From Lacinutrix sp. WUR7 (GTDB lineage Bacteria > Bacteroidota > Bacteroidia > Flavobacteriales > Flavobacteriaceae), in assembly GCF_016864015.1 (NCBI RefSeq), contig NZ_CP045067.1:2242001-2306000 (forward strand): a stretch of DNA of 64,000 bases, in the 5' to 3' direction. Positions 32,713 to 49,507 of the stretch are shown here, one piece after another. The translations under genes were made by a program, and so were the position numbers. The stretch's first letter is position 1; every line of letters begins with the position of its first letter. The notes below the pieces were generated by a model. It worked only from the letters and a program-made list of their open reading frames with translations. It was not told the DNA's origin and did not search any database.

Positions 32713-32845
32713 AACCGCAACCTTTTATTGGTTCTTTACTTTTCTTATATCTCAAGTATAAATCTGAACCAATTTTGACTGCACTTAATAATATGAAAGT
32801 TCCAAAAATATAGTTCAGTGTATTATTTCCTTTGTCCACGTTCAT
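32699..32845 (-). CDS. Small membrane protein with Cys-Gly tail
   Basis: A 48-residue protein from the ATG at 32845 (MNVDKGNNT); an in-frame ATG 13 codons upstream is possible but lies deeper inside the previous gene. One membrane segment (about 9-27) and a C-terminal GCGCGKK. It overlaps both neighbours, the usual compact phage arrangement. Family unknown; a minor membrane component of the particle is possible. Confidence 0.55.
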   Translation of the reverse strand: MNVDKGNNTLNYIFGTFILLSAVKIGSDLYLRYKKSKEPIKGCGCGKK

Positions 32846-33164: not shown

Positions 33165-33216
33165 AGGTTTTATTTACGCTGTAGTTTATGCTTAGCGCAG
33201 TCGCAGTGCGAGAGCG

Positions 33217-33723: not shown

Positions 33724-34142
33724 TATTGTGCTATTATTATTCCTGTTAATACAAGTAAGCCACCGCCAAAAAACCAGCGCTCCAGCTTACCTCTTTTTAT
33801 TTTTTTGTTCTGTTTCTTAATCGTGAGATTTAGTTCTCCAATTTGTAGTTGGTCATTTTCTTGAACAAGTGATAGATTTTCAACCTTTGTTTCAAGTTTA
33901 AAAATAATAGTGTCTTTTTTCTGAACTAATTGACGCCACTTTAAACTTCTTAATTTGAGCGTAACTATTATACTATCTTGATACAAGCTATATTCTAATC
34001 GCTTAGCTAGAAAACGAGACTGCTTCAGGTCAAAACAGAAGTATTGGGTACTATTGATTTCTTGAACTATCGGCTTTAAATCTTGCGAAATAACCTTGCA
34101 AGTCCATAGTAGACATAACATTAATCCTATTGATTTTTTCAT
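33723..34142 (-). CDS. Envelope protein with signal/anchor, coiled coil and C-terminal membrane segment
   Basis: A 139-residue protein starting with a signal-like segment that contains cysteines (MKKSIGLMLCLLWTCKVISQ), a central helical region and coiled coil (about 80-118), and a C-terminal membrane segment (FFGGGLLVLTGIIIA). It begins 92 bases inside the end of the preceding coiled-coil membrane gene in another frame, reminiscent of Rz/Rz1 spanin pairs, though the lipobox is poor and the C-terminal segment is unusual for an o-spanin. Confidence 0.6.
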   Translation of the reverse strand: MKKSIGLMLCLLWTCKVISQDLKPIVQEINSTQYFCFDLKQSRFLAKRLEYSLYQDSIIVTLKLRSLKWRQLVQKKDTIIFKLETKVENLSLVQENDQLQIGELNLTIKKQNKKIKRGKLERWFFGGGLLVLTGIIIAQ

Positions 34143-34398
34143 CGAGTTCGTTTTCTAACTTTCGTATAGTTTGAGTGCTTTCTGATATTCGTCCAGACAA
34201 ACTATCGGCTTGTGTTTTTAAATTAGTTATTTCTATATCAAGTGTTTCATTTTTTAACTCAAGTGCTTTGTTTGCTTTCTCTAGTTTTTCAATGGTATCA
34301 CTTTTCAAAGCTTCTTCTTGTGGGATGATGTAGAACACCAATAACAATATGAGTATCACAACCCATAATCCTAATAAAAAAGGTTTCCAAAACTTCAT
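34051..34398 (-). CDS. Membrane-anchored coiled-coil protein, i-spanin-like
   Basis: A 115-residue protein with one N-terminal membrane segment (about 7-26, FLLGLWVVILILLLVFYII) and a long coiled coil (about 32-98), the architecture of phage i-spanins (Rz). Overlap of its 3' end with the next gene strengthens the comparison. Sequence similarity to any known Rz is not claimed. A role in outer-membrane disruption at lysis, or a structural role, are both possible. Confidence 0.6.
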   Translation of the reverse strand: MKFWKPFLLGLWVVILILLLVFYIIPQEEALKSDTIEKLEKANKALELKNETLDIEITNLKTQADSLSGRISESTQTIRKLENELDEKINRINVMSTMDLQGYFARFKADSSRNQ

Positions 34399-34721
34399 TA
34401 TTCTTTAGGTTTGGTTTGGAACAATCTGTTTAAAAATTTCTCCAAAAGCAACTTATGGAATACCAAAGCAAAAGCAAAGGATTGCAATAAACATTCTATC
34501 ATTTTTAATTGATAACCTCTTATGAAATAGAGTGCAATCCCATAGATTAAGCCAATGAAAAACACACGATAACGTGTTGCTATTTTTATCTTGAATACTT
34601 CATAGAAAAAATCAGTAGCGCGATAGTGATTCAAACCGTAAGCAATAACAATAAAGGTTAGTATATATGCCCAATCAAGGCTATTAAGATAATTTGAAAT
34701 ATGTTGTAAAATCTCTATCAT
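34398..34721 (-). CDS. Three-segment membrane protein, holin-like candidate
   Basis: A 107-residue protein with about three hydrophobic segments (about 16-30, 48-68, 74-92) and charged short loops. Size and topology fit holins, and the gene is next to a spanin-like pair, so a lysis cassette is plausible. No family is recognised; it could equally be a membrane structural protein. Its stop shares one base with the start of the next gene. Confidence 0.55.
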   Translation of the reverse strand: MIEILQHISNYLNSLDWAYILTFIVIAYGLNHYRATDFFYEVFKIKIATRYRVFFIGLIYGIALYFIRGYQLKMIECLLQSFAFALVFHKLLLEKFLNRLFQTKPKE

Positions 34722-34966
34722 TTTAGTTGTTTTTTAAGGGTTGATTTTATGGCAGAAATATCTGCCTGCAATGCTGTTAATTGATGATTTGGAAATAGAT
34801 TTTTAGTAATATGAGCGACAATAACTATGGTAGCACCTGAAGCTAATAGTGCCAAGACAATCTTAGTTAGCGTGTTATTAGTTAAAGTGACAGTCACTTC
34901 GGTTTTTAACCCATCTTTATCTACAAGCCCATCTATAAGGTCTTTAATACTTCTTTTTTCTGGCAT
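34718..34966 (-). CDS. Small single-pass membrane protein
   Basis: An 82-residue protein with one membrane segment (about 31-56, TKIVLALLASGATIVIVAHI) between an acidic/basic N-terminus and a polar helix. It overlaps the next gene by four bases (ATGA) and the previous gene by 23 bases. Function unknown. Confidence 0.6.
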   Translation of the reverse strand: MPEKRSIKDLIDGLVDKDGLKTEVTVTLTNNTLTKIVLALLASGATIVIVAHITKNLFPNHQLTALQADISAIKSTLKKQLK

Positions 34967-35438
34967 CTTTATTTTTAAGATTAGCTATATCACGTTCTTC
35001 AAATAGCTGTTCTGTTATTTTATCTACTTTCAGGAATTTCAATACACGCTCGTTTGTAATTGCGTTAAACTCGTCAGTAACAATTCCTGCAGCACCATAA
35101 TTCTTCAAAAGATAAACTTGTAGTTGCTCTACACGTTTTCCTTTACTACCTAATTTTAAAGGAAAATCATCATTTGGTTCTGTTAGCACCTTGGTATCAA
35201 TAGCGACTACTTTTGTTTCTTTTTGAGCAGAAACAATTGGTTTTAACTTTACTATAGGAATGGCTTTCTTAACAGCTACAGTTCTTTCTGTTTTATTAGG
35301 CTTAGTATCTTCTACAATAGTAAATTCAGCATCTACAGTTGTTTCTTCTTTTTCTCTGAAAAACAAATAACTCAGCAATCCTAGACCAAGTAAACCGCCT
35401 GCAATAAGAAATCCTTTATTTATAGTTTGCTCGTTCAT
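34944..35438 (-). CDS. Membrane-anchored protein with peptidoglycan-binding-like C-terminus
   Basis: A 164-residue protein: membrane segment (about 8-26, GFLIAGGLLGLGLLSYLFF), long low-complexity linker, and a C-terminal domain (about 98-160) with LKLGSKGKRVEQLQVYLLKNYG, the start of a PG_binding_1-type repeat. It pairs with the following better-conserved paralogue at 35438-35941. Likely anchors or guides the particle at the cell wall. Confidence 0.7.
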   Translation of the reverse strand: MNEQTINKGFLIAGGLLGLGLLSYLFFREKEETTVDAEFTIVEDTKPNKTERTVAVKKAIPIVKLKPIVSAQKETKVVAIDTKVLTEPNDDFPLKLGSKGKRVEQLQVYLLKNYGAAGIVTDEFNAITNERVLKFLKVDKITEQLFEERDIANLKNKDARKKKY

Positions 35439-35941
35439 TATTTCCCAAGGCTTACAAGTGCTTTACGCATTCCTGCGATATCAGCTTGTGTGAATACTGT
35501 TTTCTTTAATCGTTTCTGTGCAGCTCTGGATGTTTTAGGTCCAAAAATGCCATCTACACCATCACGTTTTGGTCCGCTACGTCCTAAATCTTCTTTGTAA
35601 ATTTTTAAATAGCGTTGCAACACTTTTACATCTGCGTGGCGACTTCCTATTTTTATAGGGTAGCCTCGTTTTGTAATGATTGGCTTTGTACCTGAAGAAG
35701 AACTACCAGTATTTACAGGAACAAATGGTGGCGATTGATAGGTTGTCGAAGCTCCCGAACTAGTTGATGCTGCCGTCGCTGTTCCACCAGCGTTTGCAAG
35801 TTGCTTTTTCTCTTTCTTTTTAGTAAAAAAATAATAAGCAGTTGCAGCACCAGCAAGTACTATAATTGCACCACCCACGACTAAAAGGTCTTTATTCTTA
35901 GCCATAAATGATGGCGCGACTTTAGATTTAGTTTGTTTCAT
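35438..35941 (-). CDS. Membrane-anchored peptidoglycan-binding (PG_binding_1) protein
   Basis: A 167-residue protein: membrane segment (about 19-38, LLVVGGAIIVLAGAATAYYFF), Ser/Thr/Gly-rich linker, and a PG_binding_1 domain (about 92-165) showing IKIGSRHADVKVLQRYLKIY and DGVDGIFGPKTSRAAQKRL. It has no catalytic domain. Same layout as the downstream 34944-35438 protein, so the two probably arose by duplication. Confidence 0.8.
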   Translation of the reverse strand: MKQTKSKVAPSFMAKNKDLLVVGGAIIVLAGAATAYYFFTKKKEKKQLANAGGTATAASTSSGASTTYQSPPFVPVNTGSSSSGTKPIITKRGYPIKIGSRHADVKVLQRYLKIYKEDLGRSGPKRDGVDGIFGPKTSRAAQKRLKKTVFTQADIAGMRKALVSLGK

Positions 35942-35950
35942 TGATTCGTT

Positions 35951-36472
35951 TTATGATTGATAATTTGGTAATCGATTGACGTATTTTGTGACATATTCTT
36001 TCATTTCACTTTGGCTTAAAAAACTGTTTAAATATTGCCACATATCCTTTTTATAGAGTTGATAAAATGCCTTAGATAAACTTGCTACTTGAGTTTTATC
36101 TCTTATTTTTTTTCCGAAGACACTTTTTACAGCATCTTCATCATCATTAAATGAGCCTTTAGATTCCTTGATTATTTTTGCATACTTTTTTGCAGAAATA
36201 TCATCTAAAACTTGAATACCTTTTGGCGCAACCCATTTTTGAACGTCGGTCAGATAATTCATATCAAAAGGACTATTCCAGTTAGGTTCTTGTTTGGTTG
36301 TGCCTACATTTCCAGTAGTCACTTGCACGCCATTTCCAATAGAAGTTGAAGTGTTATTTTGATTTGTATTATTCTGAGTACGCTTTCGCGAAAGCGTAAC
36401 AAAAACACCTATCCCGATAACCGCTGCACCAGCGCCACCCATCATCCACCATCCTGTTTTTGATATTTCCAT
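35951..36472 (-). CDS. Membrane-anchored helical protein, paralogue A (annexin-like repeat)
   Basis: A 173-residue protein with an N-terminal Gly/Ala-rich membrane segment (about 7-27), an Asn/Thr-rich linker, and a helical domain (about 68-173) containing FDMNYL, DEDAVKSVFGKKIRDKTQV and LPNYQS. The upstream neighbour at 36474-36962 has the same pattern, so they are tandem paralogues. The domain loosely recalls an annexin repeat; that is weak. Codons just after the membrane segment carry a 20-base perfect palindrome (36379-36398). Confidence 0.7.
   Translation of the reverse strand: MEISKTGWWMMGGAGAAVIGIGVFVTLSRKRTQNNTNQNNTSTSIGNGVQVTTGNVGTTKQEPNWNSPFDMNYLTDVQKWVAPKGIQVLDDISAKKYAKIIKESKGSFNDDEDAVKSVFGKKIRDKTQVASLSKAFYQLYKKDMWQYLNSFLSQSEMKEYVTKYVNRLPNYQS
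36379..36398. repeat. Perfect 20-base palindrome inside a phage-element gene
   Basis: TACGCTTTCGCGAAAGCGTA is its own reverse complement. It sits in frame in the 35951-36472 gene right after the membrane segment, encoding TLSRKR. From memory this core (GCTTTCGCGAAAGC) is frequent in several Flavobacteriaceae genomes, so it may be a genome-wide repeat or protein-binding site that has landed in a coding region. Confidence 0.75.
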
Positions 36473-36473
36473 A

Positions 36474-36962
36474 TTATGCTGTTCTGTAGTTAGGTAGTGC
36501 CTTGATAATGTTGAGCACTATGGTTATTTCATCTTTATCAAAGCGATCTTTAAGTGTATCAATCAGGTTTTTTGAATAAGTCTCTTGATACGCTTTTGCT
36601 ACTTGAGATACCTGAACTTTATCCTTCATTTCCCTAAATATCCCATACACTTTCTCTTCATCATCGCCACCTTGATACCAGCTTCCCCAGGCCTTGTGAA
36701 TTTGGTCTGCATAGCGAGAAGCAGTACTTGTTTTTAAAACCAAAACTTCTCGATTTACAGCTTGTAATACTTTATTGAGGAAATGAATATCAAAAGCACT
36801 TTGAGACATTAATCCATTTGATATAGGTTGAATTTGAGCCTTGATAGCAGATAGTAATTTGCTTGTGCGCCCATCACGACTGCGCTTTCTTACAGAGAAG
36901 AGTGTCGTTCCTATCAAAAGTGTTCCAACACTTACACCTATTATTTTATGAGTTAGATTCAT
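36474..36962 (-). CDS. Membrane-anchored helical protein, paralogue B
   Basis: A 162-residue protein with one membrane segment (about 6-24), a basic patch (RKRSRDGR), and a helical domain (about 55-162) with FDIHFLNKVLQAV, DDEEKVYGIFREMKDKVQV and ALPNYRTA, aligning along its length with the adjacent 35951-36472 protein. No enzymatic motif. Its start overlaps the stop of the 36959-37405 gene by four bases. Confidence 0.7.
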   Translation of the reverse strand: MNLTHKIIGVSVGTLLIGTTLFSVRKRSRDGRTSKLLSAIKAQIQPISNGLMSQSAFDIHFLNKVLQAVNREVLVLKTSTASRYADQIHKAWGSWYQGGDDEEKVYGIFREMKDKVQVSQVAKAYQETYSKNLIDTLKDRFDKDEITIVLNIIKALPNYRTA

Positions 36963-37405
36963 TTGCCTAAAAGTTTTAAGCCTCGACCTGCAGGTGTCAA
37001 CATTGCTACATCAGATAAGTCTGCGTTTTTTGAAGTATTGCGCAGTAATACGATAATTCCAACGAGAACTACCGCTAGTATCACAGGTACTCCAATAGAT
37101 AAAACCTTTGTCAAATTCTTCCCAAGTCCAAACAAATTACCACCTATTTCAGATAAATCAGATATCGTTCTGGTTGCCATATTAGAAACATCAAGGTTAT
37201 TTTGATTAAGCCATTTGTTAAAATTAGGACTTGTAGTACACGAAGTAGAACCGTTAGTTTTCCAAGTAATGAGCCAAATCATTTTTGCATTCTCCTTACC
37301 AAGTTCGCTTTTAAGCTTCGCGTAATAGCTTGTCCAGAAGTCACACGGGTCGTCTGCTTCTGGAACTAAAAATATGCGATTATCTACGTTTACTTGAATG
37401 GCCAT
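36959..37405 (-). CDS. Phage-element protein with C-terminal membrane segment
   Basis: A 148-residue protein with an N-terminal soluble domain holding two cysteines close to invariant-looking aromatic residues (DPCDFWTSYYAKLKSEL; SCTTSPNFNKWL) and a C-terminal membrane segment (about 101-121). Unlike most products of the element, its anchor is at the C-terminus. Family unknown. It lies six bases after the 37411-37593 gene in the operon. Confidence 0.65.
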   Translation of the reverse strand: MAIQVNVDNRIFLVPEADDPCDFWTSYYAKLKSELGKENAKMIWLITWKTNGSTSCTTSPNFNKWLNQNNLDVSNMATRTISDLSEIGGNLFGLGKNLTKVLSIGVPVILAVVLVGIIVLLRNTSKNADLSDVAMLTPAGRGLKLLGK

Positions 37406-37410
37406 TAAAT

Positions 37411-37593
37411 CTATCTTACAATGCGATTACTTTGTTTTTGACTTTCGGTTTTACTAAAATTATTGTCTTCCAGAAATTGCTGAAGACGTGCTTTAAGAGC
37501 TGCTTCTTTTTTAAGTGCAGTACGTTTGTCATAGTTGACATAAATCTGTCTACCAAGCCAAAAACCTACGCCTAAAGTGAGTATCGTTTTCAT
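37411..37593 (-). CDS. Small membrane protein of the phage element
   Basis: A 60-residue protein with a short hydrophobic N-terminus (about 3-19, TILTLGVGFWLGRQIYV) followed by a basic amphipathic helix. It lies three bases after the amidase-like gene. Function unknown; size and topology would fit a minor membrane or coat protein. Confidence 0.55.
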   Translation of the reverse strand: MKTILTLGVGFWLGRQIYVNYDKRTALKKEAALKARLQQFLEDNNFSKTESQKQSNRIVR

Positions 37594-37596
37594 CTG

Positions 37597-38088
37597 CTAT
37601 CCTTTGAAAATATTATGCTCAGGAATTTCTAATTCTCTCAGCCATTCTGCGACTTCAAACCCAGGATTGTCTTCATCTGCCTTTGCTGGAATTTCATTAA
37701 AACCAGCGATAACGATATCTGGAAAGCGCAGTATATAGAACTTTACAATGGCTTCAAGCGCCTGTTTTTGTTCATCGGTACGTGTGTCTTTATCCCAAGC
37801 TTCCTTGAGTGTTCTGCCACCCACATAAGCAATGTGTTTTGCTTGACCTGTAACTGCATTTTTACCGTGTGATATTCCCCATAAATCTATAGTCGTCGGG
37901 TTTTCTTCATCGATAATAGTCTGCAAAGTCCCATCTTGTAAAATGAGATAATCGATGCCTGGACGGTTCCAATTAAAACCACCATCACGTATGGATGATG
38001 TATGTTGTTTAATAATTACTTCCTTGTCAAAATCTTTAGCTTCAGAAGTATTGGTGCTTTGTATTATGAGATAATCTACTTTTTGCAT
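37597..38088 (-). CDS. Amidase-fold (T7 lysozyme-like) protein lacking zinc ligands
   Basis: A 163-residue protein that follows the N-acetylmuramoyl-L-alanine amidase (Amidase_2) pattern: opening beta strand, GFNWNRPGIDYLILQDGTLQ, SHGKN, then AYVGG and DTRTDEQKQAL, and a WL-containing end. Aligned by eye with T7 lysozyme, the zinc ligands His17, His122 and Cys130 are Gln10, Phe130 and Asn141. It should therefore not be an active zinc amidase; it may bind peptidoglycan or serve a structural role. It is the first gene of the minus-strand operon, with no signal peptide. Confidence 0.8.
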   Translation of the reverse strand: MQKVDYLIIQSTNTSEAKDFDKEVIIKQHTSSIRDGGFNWNRPGIDYLILQDGTLQTIIDEENPTTIDLWGISHGKNAVTGQAKHIAYVGGRTLKEAWDKDTRTDEQKQALEAIVKFYILRFPDIVIAGFNEIPAKADEDNPGFEVAEWLRELEIPEHNIFKG

Positions 38089-38106
38089 CTGTTTAGATTA
38101 AGAGTT

Positions 38107-38158
38107 AATAGGGGATAAGCGTCTAAAACCTAACAGGCGATAAACGGGATATTTTTTA
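38107..38158. promoter_or_regulatory. Divergent control region of the phage element with iteron-like repeats
   Basis: Between the amidase-like gene and the plus-strand genes lie two similar blocks, GGGGATAAGCG and GGCGATAAACG, in direct orientation about 26 bases apart. Such repeats could bind the HTH or Rep proteins. No full TTTG-N19-TANNTTTG promoter is visible here. Confidence 0.3.
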
Positions 38159-38385
38159 ATAATCAGGATTTTATTAATGTTAGTCAGTTGTCAAAATATA
38201 TTAAAAAGGATGTGCTGAATACTAAACATTCTGTAAGTCAATATGTTGGTGATACTTTAAATAATAATGATACATCGCATAACTTTTATAATAATAAAAC
38301 AAAGTTGGCTAGTATTTTAGAATACTGTAAAGAAAAGGATGTTAAGATTATTAATGAAAAGTTCATGTTAGATAGGTCTTTTTAA
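38155..38385 (+). pseudogene. Possible gene fragment without a clear start
   Basis: An open frame from about 38130 to 38385 gives a lysine- and asparagine-rich sequence (QDFINVSQLSKYIKKD, later KLASILEYCKEKDVKII) ending at 38385. It has no ATG before its middle and only a TTG candidate at 38188. It reads like the C-terminal part of a helical protein, maybe a lost regulator or recombinase of the element, but I recognise no family and it could be chance. Confidence 0.3.
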
Positions 38386-38470
38386 ATATCACACACTGTT
38401 TCTACACTGGTGTTAATATTTAGTGTCAAGGAAATAGAATGTAATTGCGTCAAATTTAAAAGCCGTAATT

Positions 38471-38749
38471 ATGAAATCAGTCCAACTTATAGGATTAACA
38501 CCTGAGCAACTTCAAAGCGCTATTATTGATGGTGTAAAAACACAATTAGAAGATTTAAAATCTCATTTTCAACCTAAAGAGCCCACCGAGTATCTTACTC
38601 GTCAAGAGGTAGCAACAATTTTAAAAGTCGATTTGTCAACTATTCATAATTGGTGTAAATCAGGTAAATTGTTGCCTTATGGAATTGGCAAGCGAGTTTA
38701 TTTTAAAAGAGCTGACCTAGAAAGTTGTATAATTCCATTAGAACGATAG
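38471..38749 (+). CDS. Excisionase-like helix-turn-helix protein
   Basis: A 92-residue protein with an N-terminal helical segment and a C-terminal MerR/excisionase-type helix-turn-helix (about 42-88: YLTRQEVATILKVDLSTIHN, WCKSGKLLPYGIGKRVYFKR). Proteins of this kind act as excisionases or small regulators of integrated elements. It is the only plus-strand regulator candidate of the phage-like element, directly ahead of the Rep-like gene but separated from it by a terminator. Upstream (38396-38440) are ACACTG direct repeats that could be its binding sites. Confidence 0.8.
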   Translation: MKSVQLIGLTPEQLQSAIIDGVKTQLEDLKSHFQPKEPTEYLTRQEVATILKVDLSTIHNWCKSGKLLPYGIGKRVYFKRADLESCIIPLER

Positions 38750-38760
38750 TATAAAATCAA

Positions 38761-38790
38761 AAAAGAGGGTGTTCAAAGCCCTCTTTTATT
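38761..38790 (+). terminator. Rho-independent terminator between the HTH and Rep-like genes
   Basis: A perfect nine-base stem AAAAGAGGG / CCCTCTTTT with loop TGTTCAAAG followed by ATTTTG. It ends just before the first possible codon of the Rep-like frame, so the HTH gene is terminated before Rep. Confidence 0.8.
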
Positions 38791-39819
38791 TTGTTCAAAT
38801 GTTCAGTATTACGACAATGTAATACCTATTCACAAATATACACTCTTCTGTTGTTAGATTTTCTAAAAATCAAGATTACAAATGCGCAAACCAGAAGCTA
38901 TTTTTGGGAGCATTCATTACTTTACTTTCATTCAGAAAGCGAAGTGCTCTTGTTTGATAACGAAACAATCAAAACAAAAAAGGTGAAGCAATACAGAGGT
39001 TTGTTATTTGAGTTTACAAAAAACGCCTTATTCATCCGTTTTAAACCACATTATTACTTTAACAGCAATGAACACAATGCAAACGATTTTAGTGTTGCAA
39101 ATTGCATAGAAACGCTAAAAAACGTGTTTAATTCTTTCTGTGTTGACTTAGAACACCTTGAAATTATTAATATCGAATTTGGAATAAATATAGTAATACC
39201 TATACAATTAATTGATATCAGGGATTTACTATGTCAAATTATTTATCACGGACAAAATCAATTTGCTACACATTCTAAATATAGACATTGTAGGTATAGT
39301 AATTCTGTTAATAAATCAGGAATGACAAATGTTTATAAAATTATTAAAGCCTATGCAAAATGCATTCAGTTTCCTAATTATACGTCAACCAATACATTTA
39401 GGTTTGAAGCGAAAAGTAATCGAAAAAAATACATTAATAGCTTGGGGATATTTACAATTCAAGATTTGTTTAATACTCCCGTTTATGATAAATTAAGTGA
39501 AGTTATTTTAAAAGAATTTGATGAGGTTTTAATAATCGATGAACATGCAAAACCTAAACTATCTGAGACTAAGTTCAGGAACTTTGAAAAGAAGTTAAAT
39601 CCATTGACTTGGAATAGATTACTGATGAAAAGTAAAAATACTTTTAGGAGGAATATAAATTCATATTATAATGCCTTAAATACTTGTGATACACATCTGA
39701 AAAAAGAAATAAAAAAACTAATGATTGACAAACTTAATCATTTAAAAAAGTGTGCCGTTTTAAGTATATATATAGATGAAATAAGCACACAAATTAATTC
39801 AAGTAATTTAAAGGCGTAA
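38791..39819 (+). CDS. Phage/plasmid replication-initiator-like protein, start uncertain (possibly decayed)
   Basis: A 342-codon frame with the look of small rolling-circle Rep proteins of phages and plasmids in Bacteroidota: LLFEFTKNALFIRFKPHYYF, LEIINIEFGINI, and NTFRFEAKSNRKKYINSLGI followed by the helical TIQDLFNTPVYDKL. An HUH motif is not clear. The frame has only TTG at 38791 as an early start and no in-frame ATG before about codon 178; that TTG abuts a terminator and lacks a ribosome-binding site. Another frame nearby reads YYDNVIPIHKYTLF, which would suit a Rep N-terminus, so a frameshift may have damaged the gene. It defines the right end of the element. Confidence 0.6.
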   Translation: MFKCSVLRQCNTYSQIYTLLLLDFLKIKITNAQTRSYFWEHSLLYFHSESEVLLFDNETIKTKKVKQYRGLLFEFTKNALFIRFKPHYYFNSNEHNANDFSVANCIETLKNVFNSFCVDLEHLEIINIEFGINIVIPIQLIDIRDLLCQIIYHGQNQFATHSKYRHCRYSNSVNKSGMTNVYKIIKAYAKCIQFPNYTSTNTFRFEAKSNRKKYINSLGIFTIQDLFNTPVYDKLSEVILKEFDEVLIIDEHAKPKLSETKFRNFEKKLNPLTWNRLLMKSKNTFRRNINSYYNALNTCDTHLKKEIKKLMIDKLNHLKKCAVLSIYIDEISTQINSSNLKA

Positions 39820-40346
39820 TAAAAGGCTTAGTTTTAAATCAAATAGTATATTAAAGTATAAATCATTAAAAAAAAACCTATGAAAGTATTAGAGAAATCT
39901 GTGAATTCAATTGTAATATTGGTTTTGTTAGATTTTTAATAAACATAAAAGCCCTTAAATTGTTTGCTCATAACAAATAAAGAGTATCAATTCATATTGT
40001 ATTACTTGAAAGTTAAATAAGTGCTGAGTAATAGGTGTCTGAGAGTTAGTGATTTATGTTTTTTGTGGTTTCTTTATACCTATTACATTATAAAAAATGC
40101 AAAAAGTGGCTACACTATTGATTTTAATATGTTCTAACGTTGAGTGACTTATATTTGATAGGCCTAACGGTAGACAGACACAAAAACTCAAAATATTTTA
40201 TGAGGGTCTCATAAAACGGAGAGGGTGTGGGTAACTTAAATCCAATTTCCCTTTTAAATATCATGATTAAAAAACTACTACTAAGTTCTGATTAATAAAT
40301 GAACATTATTTAGTTATTTCATAGCTTCCATGTTATTACAATTATA
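39820..40346. other. Gene-less right flank of the phage-like element
   Basis: About 530 bases between the Rep-like gene and the XRE remnant. I see no gene, tRNA or clear hairpin; one 19-codon frame at 39880-39939 (MKVLEKSVNSIVILVLLDF) is too short to support. If the element replicates by rolling circle, an origin could lie here, but I cannot identify it. Confidence 0.5.
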
Positions 40347-40472
40347 CAGGAATTAACTTTGGCAGGATAGAAAGAGCAGTCCGAGATGTTAGTTTTACTA
40401 CTCTCTTAAAAATATGCTCTTATTTTGAAATTGAACCAAAAGATTTTTTTGATGGTCATTTCAGTGATTAGT
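40347..40472 (+). pseudogene. C-terminal remnant of an XRE-type HTH regulator
   Basis: One frame reads TGINFGRIERAVRDVSFTTL, LKICSYFEIEPKDFFDGHFSD, then TAG at 40470-40472. This is the second half of a Cro/CI-type helix-turn-helix (the I-x-R-I-E-R turn and LLKIC-YFEI-P-DFF end are typical of Bacteroidota XRE regulators). The first half is not found upstream in any frame. It lies 12 bases from the end of the Avs-like gene and probably remains from an earlier insertion or deletion. Confidence 0.75.
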
Positions 40473-40484
40473 TTGACAAATTTG

Positions 40485-43400
40485 TTATAATATATCCTCT
40501 CTTAATAAATATGCATTTACCGAGCCTTTACTGATTAAGAAATTTAAAATTATTAGAATTTCTGTTTTAGTTTTTATTTCATGTTTTACTTTAGTTCTAT
40601 TGAGATAAATATATTTTCTAACTAATTGCGCAGTATAGTAAACCGTATTTACTCCTAATTTTTTATGCTCATTTCCTCTAACTAAATCGCTTATCCAAAA
40701 TACACCTTCTTCTATAAAGTCACTTCCAATTTGATTTAAGAATTGAGCAATAGAATCTAATACAGCTGGATTCTCAGCCAAATCTCTAACAGTTTTTTTG
40801 TAAAATAGTTTTTCTCTTTCTTTTAAGCTAACCCAATTTTTTGCATCCTTTCTCCAATGATTCCAAGCTAATAAGTAAGTTTTAATAATACTTTTATAGT
40901 AATGTCCTCCTTCATCTTTGCCGAATTCTATTATTTTTGGATAAAAAAGTTCCCAAATTAGCCAAAACTGTTCGTACTGATTTATCTTATCTTCTGCCCA
41001 AATAAATTGCTCAAAAAAGTATTTCATTTCATCACTTGATTGAAAATTATCAACAAATGGTTTTATAAACCTATCAATATCACTTACAGGCCTGTATAAT
41101 ACAAAGTATGAGTATTTTTTAAGGAATCTATATCGTAATGAAGAATCAATATCTTGGCTTCTGTCTCTGCTTTTATCTCGGTCTCTATGTCTATTACCCT
41201 TTATTAGTTTTTCACTTAGTGACAATACAATTTCTGACACATAATTAAGTAAAGTTTTATCTTCGGTTTTAATAGGGATTATTTGAAAAATGATATCTAA
41301 ATCTTGTACTGAATAATTATCAACTTTAAAGTCGATATCTTCAAAATCCTTATTAAATGCTTCATCTAATTCTTTTTCATATTGCTTGAAAAACTCTTTT
41401 ATAATTTCTTGATATGAAACCCTTACTCTGCTATAAGGCATATCTGCTCTTGTTGATTTTTCTTCTTTAATAATATTAAATAGAGGTTTGAATTTTAAAA
41501 AACATTGTAATATTTTTAAGGCATTTAATGGAGAGATATCCCATAGATGATTAGCAAAAGCCTTTATTGCAAAATTACAAAACTTAACTTGATGACTTAT
41601 TGTTCGATTATCCATTAAGACTAAAAACAATAACGAATTGAGTTTGCTACTTTCACCAGGAAATAGATTAATTAAAAACGGGATAGATGAAATTGATACT
41701 TCAACACCATCAGATACTTGATAGTTGTATCCATCTTGAAAAGGGGCGGTTGCATATTCAAGTATTGTTTCTTTGCAAAATTCTTTTTCATCTTTTGTTA
41801 ATTCACTACTATAAAATCTTATGAGTGTTGAGCAAGTAAGTGATGGAATAGCACTGTTAAAAAGATGAAATTGGGAATCACCATTTTTTAACCCATTTAT
41901 AATTTCTTTAGTTTTATTTAATATTTTTTTAGTGTCATTTTGATATTCTTCATATTTTTCGTGTTTTTTATCTCCTTCAAGTTTGTACGTTGACCATAAT
42001 TTTAGTCCTGAATGCTTCATAAAAGATAAACTCTCTTTGACTGCCTCTTCACTGTGTTTTTTTAAATCTGCATCAATTTCAGGATTTAAACTCACTAATA
42101 TTTTGTCCCCTTGTACTTCGGTAGAGATATTCATTTTTCTTTTGTCAAGTCTTGCTAATAAAAGTCTTGTGGTTTTGTCTTTATCAGTTTCCTCATCTCT
42201 TTTTGGTAGTTTTTTGTGAAAGCTATCTATGATATCCCAAATTATTCTTGCTCTGTTTTTAGATTCTTCATCACTAATTTCTTCATTTTTGAATAACTGA
42301 TAGTTTAAGGCTAAGCTTTCTAATGAATTCCATCTATGTGGGTCATCACATGTTTTAATTCTTTCATCAGCATATATTTCATTTTCAGACATTATTCCAT
42401 AACCTATCGAGTATAAACTTTTAACGTGATATTCAGAAACGGCTCTGGATGTGTCGTAATGAAATAGTTTTTGACAACCGAATAGAACTTTGGCAACATT
42501 AAATAATTTATCAGGATACGCTAATACAACACTTGCAACAACAGAAGTTATTGAAGCGGATTTTGACTCTTTTATTAAATAAAGCAACCAGCTTTCAATA
42601 ATTTCTGATTTATGTTTTTTGGCTATATCCAAAAGATGTTTTTCTAAAGCCATATGTATAGATTGTAATAGATATGGGGTGACAGGAGAGCCATTTCCTC
42701 TATACAAATGCCATAAGGATTGACTTATATATTGCTTAACTTTTATTTCATTTGTTAATTGAATTTCGATTTCTTCTATTGTATCTTTATAATCAGAATT
42801 GGCATAAAACTCAACTGTTTTATTTGTGAAGTTTATTATGAAATCTAAAGTGTTTTTAAAAGAAAATTTTAATAGGTAATTGATTGGTGTTTGTAATGCA
42901 CTTGCAGTAGAATAATCGTGTTTAGAGTTTCTTGATATTGAATAATGTTGCTCCATACCTATGCTACTATACAATCCTGATTTTATTGGCGGTTCAAACC
43001 AAAATAAGTCTGCTAACTTTAATATATAGTCAGGTAAAGCTATTAAAGTAGGTAATGCTTCTAACTCTGGTTTTAAAATAGATAGGCATAAATCATAATA
43101 AGGGTCACTACGGTTAGACCAATTGTTTTCTAATACTTCATCAAATATTATCGATAATTCATCTTTTAATTCAGGAGCACCTTGATTTATAATTTTCACT
43201 AATTTTTTTCCTGAATCTTCTGTGTATAAATACTCGTCACTTAGTTGTAGCTTTTTGTAAAAATGTAAAGCAAATAAACTTGCTTTCTTGGTCGATTCTC
43301 CTTTGTTGTTGTTACTATTCCATTCCTCTAATAAAGGGGTTAAATATGATAAGTCTGAAATGTCAAAATTTTCAATGTTTTTGTTAATTAAATCAATAAC

Positions 43401-45239
43401 AGAATGCCAACCATTACCTTTTGGTTTTGTAAATAAATACTTTAGGTCTAATTCTTTGCCAAATAACTTATAAAGACTATTATCAACTTCTTTACAGGCA
43501 ATTCTTAAAAAGAATATCGACTTTTTTAAAATCGAATATTCATCATTTATAATTAACTCGTGAAATTGTGTAAAAAACTCATCTGAATAATCTGAAAGTA
43601 GAATAGATACAAGTGTCTCATCTTTCCAAGTTTGGTCAATAGATTTGTCTATAAAAACATTTTCTATAAATGACTTGATTTCATCAAGGTTCTCTATTAA
43701 CTTATCTGATAACCATATTCTAAATGCACGCCTAATAGTTAAGGATAAACCAATTTTAGAAACGAAATCTTTATTAGATAAAGATTGTAAGTAAGTTCTT
43801 TCTATAAGTTTATTTAATCCCCATTCTTCATAAATATCGTGAGTAATAAAATAACCACCATTTGCTGAATTATAATCAATTATTTCATCGCTTTGCAGAA
43901 GTGAAAGAGTTGCAGGTTGGCATCCACTTGGGTTTACGAAAAAATTACCACTGTCGCTTCTTTCTTTTATGATAGCTAAAAAGCATTCTTCTCTATTTAT
44001 ATGAGTATTCTGTTTTCTGTAAGAAGAATTTTGAATTTTTTTTAGCCACAAAATATTTTTAAATTCTGAATAATTTATAGTGTTATCAATACTATTGTAA
44101 TTTTTAAGATATTCATTAAGATAAAAAGGATTTAGTGTGATTTTTTTTAACCTTTCATTTATCGGTAATTGAAATTTGAATTCTTCTGATAATTTGATTA
44201 GTTCCGACTCTGTTAAATTATTTATACCTATTTGTTTAAACGGAAGTCTGAAAACTTCTATAAATTGAAATCTTAGGTCATCTAAATAACTTAATCTTGT
44301 TGTGAATAAAATAGACCAAGAGTTTTTAATTAAAGCGGAAATGAATTCTTTGATGGGTTCTTGGTTTTCTAAATCTGATATCTTTTCAGCTGAATCAATA
44401 ACAATTATTTTCCTTTCTTCTTTGTTATGTGCTTCCGTAAAGTCATTTAAGGATAGATTATGGTGTTTTTTAAAAAGTAATTGAATATCACTAAGTTCAA
44501 ATTCTGATGCCTTAAAAATATAGAAAGGGAATGAGTCTTTATTATCGTTATAAAATTCTTTTATTATTGCTGTTTTTCCACAACCACCTTCTCCACTAAT
44601 AATAACAATTCCAGATTTGTCAACCTCTTCTCGGATATCATTAATAATTGATATTCTATCAATTATTATTCTATTTTTCTCATATTCAATGTTTTCCTGA
44701 ATAGGTCTAAGTAGATTTTCAGAGTGATTTTTTATTTCATTTAAACTATCAATTACGCTCTTATCTAAGCTAAAAAAGAAGTCATTTAAGTAATTGTTTT
44801 TTGGAAGAGCAAGTTGTCTTTCAAAATGACTTGGAACTCTCCATTCAATTTCTACTTTAAGTTTTTTAGCGATTTTTTCTATTTCTTTTTTGTAAGCTGG
44901 GTTTTTTACTTTCTTTGTTGAACTTTCCGAAAATTCTTGATTCAAATAAAATAGAATCTTATTTAGTTTAGGGTTTTCTCTTTTACCTTTTTCTATTGAT
45001 TCAATTATTTCATCTTTATTATCAGATATTTTTGTTTCATAAAATTTCGCTTGAAATCCAATATATATACCTTCGAAATTTATAGGCTCTGTTTCTATTC
45101 CTGTTTGATTCTTGAATCGAAAAACACCCGTATCATTTCCATACTCATTACAGAAAAGTTGATAAGCAAGACTTTCAAATGAAGAGGTTTCTTTGCCATT
45201 AAATTTAGCTTTAAAATTATTCCAATTTATCTGAATCAT
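40485..45239 (-). CDS. Avs-like (type 4) STAND NTPase with N-terminal nuclease-like domain
   Basis: A 1584-residue protein. Residues 1-140 resemble a PD-(D/E)xK/Mrr-like nuclease: FESLAYQLFCNEYG, then TGIETEPI and IGFQAKFYE (acidic residue followed by QxK). A STAND/NACHT-type NTPase follows: Walker A GEGGCGKTA with Lys222, Walker B IIVIDSAE near 280, sensor FTTRLSYL near 315. The remaining 1100 residues are helical, repeat-like, without other motifs. Nuclease-STAND-repeats at this length matches antiviral Avs4 (AVAST type IV), which senses phage proteins and degrades DNA. The neighbouring Septu-like pair and ssrA location support defence. Some STAND proteins outside Avs share parts of this layout. 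Confidence 0.75.
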   Translation of the reverse strand: MIQINWNNFKAKFNGKETSSFESLAYQLFCNEYGNDTGVFRFKNQTGIETEPINFEGIYIGFQAKFYETKISDNKDEIIESIEKGKRENPKLNKILFYLNQEFSESSTKKVKNPAYKKEIEKIAKKLKVEIEWRVPSHFERQLALPKNNYLNDFFFSLDKSVIDSLNEIKNHSENLLRPIQENIEYEKNRIIIDRISIINDIREEVDKSGIVIISGEGGCGKTAIIKEFYNDNKDSFPFYIFKASEFELSDIQLLFKKHHNLSLNDFTEAHNKEERKIIVIDSAEKISDLENQEPIKEFISALIKNSWSILFTTRLSYLDDLRFQFIEVFRLPFKQIGINNLTESELIKLSEEFKFQLPINERLKKITLNPFYLNEYLKNYNSIDNTINYSEFKNILWLKKIQNSSYRKQNTHINREECFLAIIKERSDSGNFFVNPSGCQPATLSLLQSDEIIDYNSANGGYFITHDIYEEWGLNKLIERTYLQSLSNKDFVSKIGLSLTIRRAFRIWLSDKLIENLDEIKSFIENVFIDKSIDQTWKDETLVSILLSDYSDEFFTQFHELIINDEYSILKKSIFFLRIACKEVDNSLYKLFGKELDLKYLFTKPKGNGWHSVIDLINKNIENFDISDLSYLTPLLEEWNSNNNKGESTKKASLFALHFYKKLQLSDEYLYTEDSGKKLVKIINQGAPELKDELSIIFDEVLENNWSNRSDPYYDLCLSILKPELEALPTLIALPDYILKLADLFWFEPPIKSGLYSSIGMEQHYSISRNSKHDYSTASALQTPINYLLKFSFKNTLDFIINFTNKTVEFYANSDYKDTIEEIEIQLTNEIKVKQYISQSLWHLYRGNGSPVTPYLLQSIHMALEKHLLDIAKKHKSEIIESWLLYLIKESKSASITSVVASVVLAYPDKLFNVAKVLFGCQKLFHYDTSRAVSEYHVKSLYSIGYGIMSENEIYADERIKTCDDPHRWNSLESLALNYQLFKNEEISDEESKNRARIIWDIIDSFHKKLPKRDEETDKDKTTRLLLARLDKRKMNISTEVQGDKILVSLNPEIDADLKKHSEEAVKESLSFMKHSGLKLWSTYKLEGDKKHEKYEEYQNDTKKILNKTKEIINGLKNGDSQFHLFNSAIPSLTCSTLIRFYSSELTKDEKEFCKETILEYATAPFQDGYNYQVSDGVEVSISSIPFLINLFPGESSKLNSLLFLVLMDNRTISHQVKFCNFAIKAFANHLWDISPLNALKILQCFLKFKPLFNIIKEEKSTRADMPYSRVRVSYQEIIKEFFKQYEKELDEAFNKDFEDIDFKVDNYSVQDLDIIFQIIPIKTEDKTLLNYVSEIVLSLSEKLIKGNRHRDRDKSRDRSQDIDSSLRYRFLKKYSYFVLYRPVSDIDRFIKPFVDNFQSSDEMKYFFEQFIWAEDKINQYEQFWLIWELFYPKIIEFGKDEGGHYYKSIIKTYLLAWNHWRKDAKNWVSLKEREKLFYKKTVRDLAENPAVLDSIAQFLNQIGSDFIEEGVFWISDLVRGNEHKKLGVNTVYYTAQLVRKYIYLNRTKVKHEIKTKTEILIILNFLISKGSVNAYLLREDIL

Positions 45240-45264
45240 ATTGCTCTAAAAAAATGTTATTTTG

Positions 45265-45292
45265 AATATAGGGAGAGATAATAAATATAGGG
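45265..45292. promoter_or_regulatory. Direct repeats in the divergent defence promoter region
   Basis: AATATAGGG occurs at 45265-45273 and again at 45284-45292, a 19-base period, between the divergent Avs-like and Septu-like genes. On the minus strand the repeats read CCCTATATT, so they may overlap the -7 region of the Avs-like gene and act as operator half-sites. Confidence 0.35.
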
Positions 45293-45337
45293 AAAATCAA
45301 TTAGTTGATGTTATACTTTGATACAAATTCTGTTTTT

Positions 45338-45372
45338 TTTTTGAATAAATTATAGTTAGTTTTATAATTTTA
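45338..45372 (+). promoter_or_regulatory. Candidate promoter of the Septu-like operon
   Basis: TTTG after a run of T is followed about 20 bases later by TATAATTTTA, near the Bacteroidota TTTG-N19-TANNTTTG form, about 35 bases before the ATG at 45406. The match is partial. Confidence 0.35.
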
Positions 45373-45405
45373 TCTAACTGAATTTAAATATTTTTTTTAA
45401 GAACC

Positions 45406-47715
45406 ATGGTATTAGCTTCAATTTTTATATTAGAACATTTCTTATTTGATGAGCCACAAACTATTAATTTCGGAGGAAAATATACTTGCGAATTTTTACT
45501 TAACAAAGAGAAAACCGAAATCGAATTGACGTTAACCGAGAATGAAAAACATATTCCTGATTTCTTTGGTGATAATATTTCACTCATATCTGCTTTAGTC
45601 GGAGCGAATGGTACAGGGAAAACTACGGTTATGTCTATTGTCAATAAATTTAGAGATTTTAGCCGAGCTGTATTTGTATATGATGACGGAGGAGAAGAAC
45701 CTATCATTGATAATAGGACAGGTGTAAGAGGCGAAAATGGGAACCCTACGATCAAAAATCAAATCAATATTTATTATAAATCCATAGAACAACACTCTAT
45801 TGCTACAGATGATATACCCAAGCTGTATTATACATCTATACCTGATGTTGAACTTGAAAGTTTTTCATCTGCCTTAAATATTAACCCAAAACGCAACCAA
45901 ACTATTGATGATTACCATTTTGATAAAATTGAAAAAAATGTATTGTTTTTGAGTAGTGATTTAAGTGTGGCTTTAAAAAAGAGGTACAGTGAAATACCGC
46001 TTTATAATAAATTATTTATTTCGGCAAAGCCATTGTCTAAAAGGGATTTGCGTAACACCTATGGTGGTTTTAAGGAAGATGGAGATATTGAAATTATCCA
46101 AAAACAGAATCTGGATGACCTTTGGGATACGTATGAAATAAAAGAAGAAAATCTAAACCATTTGACTAATAATGGTTTAGATTTTTTTAAAAATATAGAG
46201 GTTAATATTTTATCATACATTGTTATTGATGCAACCTCCATGAAAACTATATATAATGGTAGGCCAGATGTTCTTTTTGAAGAATTTTTAGTTAAGAAAG
46301 ATTTTATTGAAAAGCTTATTGACTTTTTGAGTCACAAGATAGCTTTTATAGACAAGTATCTTTATCAGAGAGTAAAGAACGAATTGAAGGTTCTAAACTT
46401 TAATACGTCATTAGATTTATTAGATGGTTTAGATTTCAATGATGAGCTGGATAAAAAAGAAATGCGTGTTTTAGAAAGGTTCGAAAAAATTAGATTGACA
46501 AGTCTATCTAATTCTTCAAGTTCAGATAATGTCTCTATTCTATATAGTTCTTTAGAAAATTTGATTAATGAAGAATTAGGTGAAAAGGATTTTGAAAATT
46601 ATAGGAATGGTGTTCAGAAAGTGCTCAAAAGAATTAATACACCTATTTCTGGGACAACGGAAATGCTAAATAAACAGATTCAAAGCTCTATTGATGAATT
46701 ACAACGAGGTCTTAGATTAAACTTTCAAAGCCATAGAGATAATAGAGCTGAAATTAAAGCTCAAGTTGTAGGTGAATTTAAGCAATCAATTAAACTTTTT
46801 TCTTCTATTGTTCATTTTTACGATGTTTTAAAAGAAGTGGAAAAAAGAAAAGGTTTTGACATTAAAGACGGTGTATTAACTATGAATTTAATATCTATTA
46901 ATTTTAATTCTTTCAAAGAATTATTGCAGGCTTACAGAAAAATGATAGGCTGTTTTAATGAAAACTCTGTGATTAATGCGCAAATTCTTCAATTCACACC
47001 TTCTGCGAGATTATCATTTGGTGAGAAGTCACTATTAAATTTATTCAGTGCATTTTATAGCTTTACCCTCAATAAATATGATTTTCAAAGACGTAAAAAA
47101 AATTATATTTTACTGTTAGACGAAGCAGATTTAGGATTTCACCCATTATGGAAAAGAAGATATGTGAGTTATCTTTTAAATGTTCTACCTGACATTTTTA
47201 AACAGCTTTTTGTAAAACTTGATAGTCATTCCACTATTGAGGAAGCTGAGGTTGAGAATATATCTCCAAAAATTCAAATCATTTTGGCAACTCATGACCC
47301 ATTGGCGTTATCAGATATCCCAAATCACAATGTAATTTATATTAAGAAAGATGAAAATTTAAAATCAAAAATTTTAGGAAATATAGCAGAGGATGAACGA
47401 CCTAGAAAATCATTTGGGGCAAACATTTCTGACCTTATAGCTCATTCTTTTTTTATCGAAGGTGGATTAGTTGGTGATTTTGCAAGTAAGAAAATTAATC
47501 AAACGATTGCTTGGTTAAATTTGCAGATGGGAAAAGATTTCAATTCTGAATATAAGATAATTGACGATCCAATATATCATAAAAAAGTTATCGAGTTAAT
47601 CGATGAGCCAATAGTACGTCATAAACTCCGACAAATGTACATTGAAGCAACTAATGATAAAGAAGCAATAGAGAAAGAAATAGAACGTCTAAAACGTAAA
47701 ATTAAAAAAAGATGA
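45406..47715 (+). CDS. Septu-like (PtuA-type) AAA/ABC-class ATPase
   Basis: A 769-residue ATPase of the SMC/ABC class used in defence. Walker A is GANGTGKTT (Lys72), the ABC signature LSFGEKSLLN lies near residue 540, Walker B ILLLDEAD near 568-575, and the switch histidine ATHDPLAL near 628. A long coiled-coil or helical insert separates the halves, and the last 30 residues are a basic helix. The downstream gene is an HNH nuclease with ATGA overlap, the PtuA-PtuB arrangement of Septu (the same pair also accompanies some retrons, but no reverse transcriptase is present). Longer than typical PtuA, so a variant subtype is likely. Confidence 0.8.
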   Translation: MVLASIFILEHFLFDEPQTINFGGKYTCEFLLNKEKTEIELTLTENEKHIPDFFGDNISLISALVGANGTGKTTVMSIVNKFRDFSRAVFVYDDGGEEPIIDNRTGVRGENGNPTIKNQINIYYKSIEQHSIATDDIPKLYYTSIPDVELESFSSALNINPKRNQTIDDYHFDKIEKNVLFLSSDLSVALKKRYSEIPLYNKLFISAKPLSKRDLRNTYGGFKEDGDIEIIQKQNLDDLWDTYEIKEENLNHLTNNGLDFFKNIEVNILSYIVIDATSMKTIYNGRPDVLFEEFLVKKDFIEKLIDFLSHKIAFIDKYLYQRVKNELKVLNFNTSLDLLDGLDFNDELDKKEMRVLERFEKIRLTSLSNSSSSDNVSILYSSLENLINEELGEKDFENYRNGVQKVLKRINTPISGTTEMLNKQIQSSIDELQRGLRLNFQSHRDNRAEIKAQVVGEFKQSIKLFSSIVHFYDVLKEVEKRKGFDIKDGVLTMNLISINFNSFKELLQAYRKMIGCFNENSVINAQILQFTPSARLSFGEKSLLNLFSAFYSFTLNKYDFQRRKKNYILLLDEADLGFHPLWKRRYVSYLLNVLPDIFKQLFVKLDSHSTIEEAEVENISPKIQIILATHDPLALSDIPNHNVIYIKKDENLKSKILGNIAEDERPRKSFGANISDLIAHSFFIEGGLVGDFASKKINQTIAWLNLQMGKDFNSEYKIIDDPIYHKKVIELIDEPIVRHKLRQMYIEATNDKEAIEKEIERLKRKIKKR

Positions 47716-48674
47716 TTAACATTCGAACTAATCAAACAGGTCATGCGTTAAAATTGCATCAAGATGGATTGAAAGGAGAAATTGTTGCAAGAGCAAAAAG
47801 GATTTATAAAAATCATAAAAATTCCATGGGAAGGATTCCTTTTCGTAGATTAATTGTTTTTTTGGAAGAAAATGAGTCAAGAATTTTGGTTAGCGAATTA
47901 CCTGCTGTTATTGGAATACAGCAACAGCTATTTCATGAATTCGGTGATTCGTCTGACCTTCGAAGCGATTTGGAAAACATAATTAATTATAAATGGTTTC
48001 GAAAATATAAAAAAGGGAAGCACGATGGCTTTAAATTAGCTAAAGCACTTTCAATTGATGTTTGTCCATACTGTAATAGGAATTATACTACTTCTCACAA
48101 TATAGAAGGTACTACTAAAAATGTATTTCCTGAATTTGACCATTATTACCCTCAGCGAAGATACCCTTTGTTAGCACTTTCATTTTATAATCTAATTCCA
48201 AGTTGTAATGTTTGCAATACACATTTTAAAGGTGATGACGACCCGAATGATGCTGAGCATAATATATTTTATCCATATTCAACTTTAAACCCAGTTAAGC
48301 ACTTTAATTTTGATTTTTCACCTTTGGATTATTCAAGTCTAATTGGAAAGTCAACTAATTTTGATACATCAATTAATACTCTTAAATACACTTCATCTAA
48401 AGACATTAAGGATTTAGTTGAAGGTTCTTTGGATTACTTTAATATAGTGGGAACATATAATGCTAATCATAAAGGGTTAATTAAAGCCTTAATTAATAAG
48501 CGTGTCAATCACTCCAATTCTTATATGAAGAGTTTATTTGATAATTATGGAATCACAAGAGAAGAAGCATACCACATTCTTTTTGAATCATATTATGAAG
48601 ATGAAAAGCTATTGAAACGCCCTTTAAGTAAGTTGAAGAAAGATATTTTTAACGAAATAGAATCTTTAAGTTAA
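47712..48674 (+). CDS. Septu-like (PtuB-type) HNH endonuclease
   Basis: A 320-residue protein with a zinc-bound HNH nuclease core: Cys118-x-x-Cys121 (VCPYCNRNY), PEFDHYYPQ with His144, NLIPSCNVCN with Cys165-x-x-Cys168. The DH pair is the usual metal site of HNH enzymes. It overlaps the ATPase gene by four bases (ATGA), so the two are translated together and likely act as a complex that cuts nucleic acid on phage infection. It is the last gene before the tmRNA terminator. Confidence 0.82.
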   Translation: MINIRTNQTGHALKLHQDGLKGEIVARAKRIYKNHKNSMGRIPFRRLIVFLEENESRILVSELPAVIGIQQQLFHEFGDSSDLRSDLENIINYKWFRKYKKGKHDGFKLAKALSIDVCPYCNRNYTTSHNIEGTTKNVFPEFDHYYPQRRYPLLALSFYNLIPSCNVCNTHFKGDDDPNDAEHNIFYPYSTLNPVKHFNFDFSPLDYSSLIGKSTNFDTSINTLKYTSSKDIKDLVEGSLDYFNIVGTYNANHKGLIKALINKRVNHSNSYMKSLFDNYGITREEAYHILFESYYEDEKLLKRPLSKLKKDIFNEIESLS

Positions 48675-48775
48675 AATTGAATTATAATTTTAAGGGAGTT
48701 CGATATATTCTAATCAACAAATATTAATCAATTTGTTAACTATTTTTGAGAAGTTTAGTAAATGTTTGGTAGCGT

Positions 48776-48826
48776 GGTAAAAAAGAAACCTCAACAAATT
48801 GATTATCAATAGGCTGAGGTTTTTTA
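48776..48826. terminator. Terminator downstream of ssrA and the Septu-like operon
   Basis: AACCTCA and TGAGGTT flank a 20-base AT-rich loop with a T-rich tract on both strands (TTTTTT at 48820 on plus, TTTCTTTTTT on minus). It lies just past the 3' end of the tmRNA gene and can serve both convergent transcripts. Confidence 0.7.
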
Positions 48827-48829
48827 ATG

Positions 48830-49220
48830 TGGAGTCGGAGAGAATCGAACTCTCGTCCAAACAAGTAACCAAAGGGCTTTCTACACGTTTATTCTTTTCT
48901 TAGGTTTTCGATTGCAAGCTGGTTAAAGACAACCCACTTACAACTTATCTTTTTTATCTCGAAAGTGCATCAAAGCGCTACACAGTCATAGTCAATTTTT
49001 ACGATATCTCAAATGGAACGCCATTAACTAAGGCTTTCCGGAGACATAAAGCTCGCTCACCTAGTGAGCCGAGGCTTAATCCTACTATAATTCGGATTAG
49101 GCAGCTAAAGCGTAGTTATTCTCGCCGTTTAAAAAGTTGAAATAAGTATTTACGAGTATAATCTCATTACTCGACGTGCTTACCGTTTCATTAATCTCGC
49201 TGTCAAAACCAGTCGACCCC
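48830..49220 (-). ncRNA. ssrA: tmRNA, tag peptide NGENNYALAA
   Basis: Rescues stalled ribosomes by trans-translation. Reading the minus strand, the 5' end GGGGTCGACTGGTTTTGACAG at 49220 pairs with the 3' acceptor strand CGACTCC ending at 48831, plus discriminator A at 48830; the CCA is not encoded. The T-arm sequence TTCGATTCTCTCC is present. The tag reading frame is 49129-49097: Asn-Gly-Glu-Asn-Asn-Tyr-Ala-Leu-Ala-Ala then TAA, the Flavobacteria type. Its 3' end faces the phage/defence island; ssrA ends are well-known insertion sites for mobile elements. Confidence 0.97.
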
Positions 49221-49242: not shown

Positions 49243-49342
49243 GCGTTACGCATTTTTGCTTTTAAGGGCAAAAATGCGTCAGGCTTTCCGCTATATCTTT
49301 TGCTAGAAAAAAGCAAAAGGATGTCGCTGCAATCCTTAACGC
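49243..49342. repeat. Palindromic flavobacterial repeat element, copy 1
   Basis: A 100-base unit bounded by GCGTTA and TAACGC. Inside, CGCATTTTTGC and GCAAAAATGCG form an 11-base stem; a second stem pairs ATCTTTTGCT with AGCAAAAGGAT (one bulge). The segments GCTTTCCGCTATATCTTTT and GGATGTCGCTGCAATCC recur, as I recall, in many Flavobacteriaceae genomes between genes. It is non-coding and lies between ssrA and the oxidoreductase gene; translated frames over it are spurious. Confidence 0.8.
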
Positions 49343-49507
49343 GCGCAAACCTAAACAAAAGCATCGGTTTACAAATGCAAAGTTATTAAAAAGTTTGTAT
49401 AACCTCGCAATTCCTATTACTTTAGTGCAAAAATTATTCCAACAAGATGTTCCTGACAAATATTCGTGAACTCGTAATTAGAATAAATCCAATAGTATAA
49501 CCATAAG

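Follow-up and report, generated by a model that had tools for sequence, protein, structure and literature searches.

The window analysed here, a stretch of 64,000 nucleotides from Lacinutrix sp. WUR7 (contig NZ_CP045067.1), contains a large minus-strand gene assigned to avs4, which lies between a virus-like element and a divergent gene pair with the tmRNA gene behind it. Features of the locus and of the encoded protein are as follows, in window coordinates:

32188-38088, minus strand: truncated virus-like element beside avs4, representing part of a longer one
38471-39819: HTH_17 gene, then a hairpin, then the gene for a 342-residue protein (from Pfam and a hairpin scan)
40485-45239, minus strand: avs4 gene, stop codon included; ATG start, 1584 residues, intact, no internal stop
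40488-43799, minus strand: long sensor region at the C-terminus (about residues 481-1584), whose alignment runs through to the end of 8dgf chain A
43800-44759, minus strand: STAND NTPase region, about residues 161-480, the boundaries being a working cut; nSTAND3 at residues 199-331
44385-44408, minus strand: Walker B region, ending I281-D-S-A-E285 (from the alignment)
44571-44594, minus strand: Walker A, G216-EGGCGK-T223 (GEGGCGKT; from the alignment)
44760-45239, minus strand: N-terminal nuclease domain, PD-(D/E)XK-like, about residues 1-160 (the model covers residues 1-190)
45045-45095, minus strand: putative active-site motif, E49 ... Q63-A-K65
45406-48674, plus strand: PDC-M62 A/B pair, divergent from avs4; PADLOC candidate system, Septu (PtuAB)-like
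45406-47715, plus strand: PDC-M62A ATPase, 196.9 bits, the best-matching part being residues 404-768 of its 769
47712-48674, plus strand: PDC-M62B HNH protein, 193.2 bits
48829-49220, minus strand: tmRNA gene, with congener synteny breaking off at its 3' end or close by
49273-49356, next to the tmRNA gene: Flavo-1 RNA (Rfam RF01705, 54.2 bits)

An Avs4-like gene of 1,584 residues at 40485-45239 had been proposed in an earlier sequence-only reading of this DNA, and both the single uninterrupted frame and the family searches bore this out. PADLOC reported Avs4 as the only family at E ≤ 1, over the full length and with 1936 bits, and the NCBIfam Avs4 equivalog NF041815 gave 2047.4 bits against a cut-off of 1500, which places the protein in the family. 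Because of these two matches the frame lies far beyond chance. The sole solved structure matched by sequence was PDB 8dgf, E. coli Avs4 (EcAvs4), with 1217.6 bits and residues 1-1584 aligned to 1-1587; its title in the fold library is 'Avs4 bound to phage PhiV-1 portal'. Matches to the protein were found in 39 plasmid records, 35 of them with 80% or more of the query covered. All 15 of the listed plasmid rows came from E. coli or Salmonella, each at 39.7% identity over 100% of the query, and were annotated as Avs4 (14) or 'ATP-binding protein' (1). In phage records the only match was weak and covered 23% of the query, and a search of the one-contig source genome with the Avs4 protein returned a single match, the gene itself. 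Sequence comparison confirms the product as an intact Avs4, which would make it a single-protein pattern-recognition immune receptor. STAND ATPases are widespread, and a STAND regulator unrelated to defence would share only the general fold with Avs4; the best profile matches were to Avs4 and not to non-defence STAND regulators, and the full-length equivalog match together with the nuclease domain leaves that reading next to no probability.

The N-terminus had been described as nuclease-like with a QxK motif, and the motif is present as Q63-A-K65. E49, Q63 and K65 were kept in all six Avs4 rows compared (the window, two genomes of its family, two viral contigs and one E. coli plasmid), and four rows with other N-termini do not align there; these three are putative catalytic residues. 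The model of residues 1-190 was built on an alignment of three rows, the window protein and its relatives from the two viral contigs, L063 and L064. The best of five models had a mean pLDDT of 72.7, the others ranging from 64.8 to 48.9, and residues 45-48, adjoining E49, fell under 50. Across residues 17-134 of the model a helix is followed by three strands, a second helix, a fourth strand, a third helix and a fifth strand, the order seen in PD-(D/E)XK nucleases. The top structural match was 8dgf (Z 16.7, rmsd 2.4, 143 residues), followed by the restriction endonucleases EcoT38I (Z 7.8) and R.BspD6I small subunit (Z 7.4); CD38 entries occupied many rows at a Z of about 5, and a Z under 8 is weak by itself. 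A nuclease fold is proposed because of the 8dgf match, the other Z values all being under 8, and from a model of middling confidence. The Avs4 nuclease domain is presumably Mrr-like.

The STAND NTPase of the sequence-only reading was recognised by Pfam nSTAND3 (29.7 bits, cut-off 27.2). All six Avs4 rows keep Walker A (G216-T223) as well as the aspartate of Walker B, and five keep the DSAE string, L064 having DAVE; the STAND ATPase site of the window protein is intact. The long C-terminal region was likewise found as described, aligned to the end of 8dgf. Identity to EcAvs4 was 45% over residues 1-160, 48% over 161-480, 43% over 481-1000, 36% over 1001-1400 and 37% over 1401-1584, so that the sensor is the less conserved part (36-43% versus 45-48% in the nuclease and STAND regions), and for this reason the trigger could differ from that of EcAvs4.

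Avs4 was rare in two genome samples that both included the source genome. Matches above the NF041815 cut-off were found in three of 299 genomes of the window's family, Flavobacteriaceae (its own, G066 and G138), and in one of 395 of its phylum (its own); some match at E ≤ 0.001 was seen in 62 of the 299, mostly short stretches over the NTPase. The Avs4 proteins of G138 (L005) and G066 (L004) scored 2059.5 and 2083.1 bits, both above the NCBIfam cut-off, and were 49% and 41% identical to the window protein. Inspection of open reading frames in their neighbourhoods (19.5 kb and 13.4 kb, respectively) revealed neither a PDC-M62 pair nor the virus-like element, and their DNA similarity to positions 28-56 kb of the window covered avs4 plus about 10 bases beyond and nothing else. 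Weaker, shorter or split relatives were seen in G007, G313 and G070. Full-length relatives were also present on the IMG/VR viral contigs L063 and L064 (36% and 27% identity), and by eye an open reading frame upstream of the L064 gene resembles a serine recombinase; these contigs and the recombinase-like frame suggest that Avs4 may travel on phage-like elements.

Four further loci encode Avs4-like STAND/sensor proteins with other N-termini:

L007, 748-5796: STAND/sensor protein with another N-terminus
L008, 718-5757: the same arrangement
L009, 1480-6528: the same arrangement
L061, 853-5715: the same arrangement

These proteins match the Avs4 model from about position 150 on (433-673 bits, all below the Avs4 cut-off), are 23-26% identical to the window protein and have an N-terminus unlike the Avs4 nuclease. 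That of L061 matched LmuA with 102.8 bits and Trypsin_2 below its cut-off, giving a trypsin-like and an LmuA-like stretch. In a ten-row tree the six Avs4 rows were split from these four with support 100/100; the order inside the six was poorly resolved, L064 forming a long branch. The four relatives point to an exchange of effectors on an Avs4-type sensor. Such joining of Avs4-like STAND and sensor regions to other N-terminal domains, in relatives from the same family or phylum, and the greater divergence of the sensor region would both suit a nuclease receptor of the Avs4 family in which the sensor had drifted and now recognised a phage protein other than the portal. The last 795 residues of the window protein, however, align with EcAvs4 to its end (560 bits to residues 796-1587 of 8dgf when searched alone), and a drifted sensor is considered unlikely beside a sensor that still recognises the portal.

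The two genes divergent from avs4 encode an adjoining M62A ATPase and M62B HNH protein, reported by PADLOC as PDC-M62. The pair is Septu-like, yet far under the NCBIfam Septu cut-offs, with 41.2 of 500 bits for PtuA and 15.6 of 150 bits for PtuB. Beyond it the tmRNA gene marks, to within 46 bases, the edge of the region shared with the congeners compared. From a sample of seven genomes, own included, five of the six others have the flanking gene and were compared; similarity stopped at 48828 or 48829 in three, at 48817 in one and at 48783 in one. An island targeted to the tmRNA gene was considered. Searches of the window and the genome for a further copy of the tmRNA 3' end found none, no integrase stood out at 31.7-48.7 kb when open reading frames and profile matches were read, and the left side varies between congeners, so integration at the tmRNA gene was not accepted.

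On the other side of avs4, the HTH_17 protein gave excisionase-type matches and its gene is followed by a terminator-like hairpin (38761-38787), such hairpins being no commoner in the region than in shuffles. The 342-residue protein (38791-39819) had no useful family match and was matched by none in phages or viral contigs; as a guess, it might be a replication initiator. By eye, a probable remnant of an xre-like HTH gene lies at 40340-40471 on the plus strand and stops just short of the avs4 3' end.

That avs4 adjoins this probable remnant and a truncated element would be in keeping with a decaying or silent copy, in which the frame is intact and the gene unexpressed or inactive. Sigma-70-type promoter-like sites numbered 57 in 38000-49000, versus 64.7 expected from shuffles, a count that says little because the consensus used was presumably not made for flavobacteria. 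Set against these points are 1584 uninterrupted codons with all inspected motifs kept, and a silent copy is judged very improbable; an active Avs4 receptor remains the preferred reading.

A phage-like element beside avs4 had also been reported. The element at 32188-38088 is real, although what stands there is a partial copy of a longer one. Among its products are an M15 peptidase, an amidase and a protein whose peptidoglycan-binding matches are weak; there are also numerous small proteins in which, judged by eye, a membrane segment lies close to one terminus. A 148-residue protein of the element was found in 14 named flavobacterial loci (L047-L060, the hosts including Aquimarina agarilytica and, for L052, Patiriisocius marinus) at 71-93% identity; several of these loci are contigs of genomes also present in a 397-genome sample of the family. 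Most of the loci are fuller copies with about ten further genes, including one for a highly conserved 303-residue protein, F15, whose identity to the first row is 85-100% across ten loci. A beta-propeller protein and cell-wall enzymes are also encoded, and six loci have upstream an ATPase with Zot and A32-type matches just above the Pfam cut-offs. In the 397 genomes the 148-residue protein was found in ten, one match being weak (G265). F15 had no match in the window's genome, and the same model found it in nine of the 397, among them G092, which has no 148-residue match. Because the window's genome is the only one without F15 among the nine with a strong 148-residue match, the window copy is regarded as truncated.

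F15 was considered a candidate capsid protein, and its structural model reached a mean pLDDT of 54.6. The model had no Foldseek match at E ≤ 0.001, and a second structural comparison, made with this low-pLDDT model, returned nucleoplasmin-like domains (Z 7.2) as well as viral jelly rolls (Z 6.3 or lower). A paper on double-jelly-roll viruses (PMC5894146) did not identify the element. No published work on the element was found by title; as a lead it is more novel than Avs4 and may matter more.

The element had been thought to lack a portal. No portal family was among the PHROGs matches shown for the 15 window element open reading frames of at least 60 residues; for two coiled-coil-like frames these were the best 25 of 45 and the best 25 of 29 weak matches. 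Nor was one among the PHROGs matches of ten proteins from the fuller copies, in a scan that left out F20, F21, F24 and F27. The portal models phrog_12 and PF04860 matched nothing in the whole genome, and each matches four of 14 control genomes. With the earlier suggestion thus upheld across these searches, the element would presumably not trigger Avs4. One element enzyme matched the lysozyme part of the tail/baseplate family phrog_1259 (E 3.5e-33), a second matched, after many endolysins, a tail protein with an endopeptidase domain (E 2.2e-6), and the ATPase weakly matched a portion of a terminase large-subunit family (E 1.7e-6); the two tail-associated matches and the partial terminase match count against a tailless reading of the element. 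Phage records held no match for the 148-residue protein, the ATPase or F15; the beta-propeller protein had a single match there, weak and partial. Viral contigs held none for a 168-residue protein, the 148-residue protein or F15 in a pattern search, which finds close relatives best.

Of the 14 loci, L057 stops short of the border on the M15 peptidase side of the element; in each of the other 13 this border could be read and is followed by genes that are not part of the shared module. Stretches with defence genes at or near the M15-side border, in several genomes, include:

L056, 15274-19079: Hachiman (HamA/HamB)
L029, 123-12515: Wadjet
L054, 14767-20265: MksE/JetD-like set
L048, 16049-19303: SNF2-type helicase

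A three-gene set at the M15 side, F22, F23 and F25, recurs in 7-8 loci and comprises an MksE protein and weak JetD matches (Mks/Wadjet-like); it could equally belong to the element. At the G016 border RtcR-like, DrmC-like and MkoA-like genes were seen, with a Wadjet JetB/JetC/JetD set about 7 kb away. The proteins scanned, ten from seven loci and seven from G016, are part of the genes on that side and come from element loci alone. PADLOC left five of the ten unmatched and two with weak matches only, and one of the seven from G016 unmatched. In some relatives the element border carries or adjoins defence genes.

If Avs4 had been brought in by, or travelled with, a virus-like element without a detected portal, the element would profit from a host receptor that senses portals, tailed competitors being stopped while the element goes unseen. 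Defence cargo would then be a habit of the element, given the Hachiman, Wadjet and Mks/Wadjet-like genes at its borders elsewhere. Such an origin for avs4 is unlikely. In the window the M15 side meets a LacI-type gene, and avs4 stands on the truncated side, by adjacency only; Avs4 was not accepted as cargo of the element.

PMC12724215 names the large terminase as the target of Avs1-3 and the portal as that of Avs4; for Avs2 it sets out the binding by the sensor and an assembly that depends on ATP. PMC12931631 presents Avs1-4 as nucleases which, upon recognising terminase, portal or Ksap1, cleave the genomes of phage and host. By analogy with these proteins, portal binding, ATP-driven assembly and DNA cleavage are most likely the activities of the window Avs4. 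During infection by a tailed phage its C-terminal sensor would bind the portal protein, upon which the STAND domains would bind ATP and oligomerise. The clustered nuclease domains would then cut phage and host DNA, which would halt the infection at the cost of the cell. Taken as a whole, an intact Avs4 receptor with a portal-directed sensor, an ATP-assembled STAND region and a DNA-cutting nuclease is a highly probable account of the gene.

As a further member of a known family the window Avs4 is a good but ordinary find. Its interest lies in its being a well-formed Avs4 that keeps every motif inspected and is encoded on the chromosome of a marine flavobacterium. Sharing about 40% identity with the solved protein from E. 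coli, it is a usefully diverged member on which to test whether recognition of the portal extends across phyla. EcAvs4 (8dgf; avs4 is found on plasmids such as NZ_CP027137.1) resembles it in domain order and length (1587 versus 1584 residues), and the E/QxK and Walker motifs are common to both. The two differ in sequence, being 39.7% identical, and in setting, EcAvs4 being encoded on an enterobacterial plasmid whereas the window Avs4 is chromosomal in a flavobacterium.
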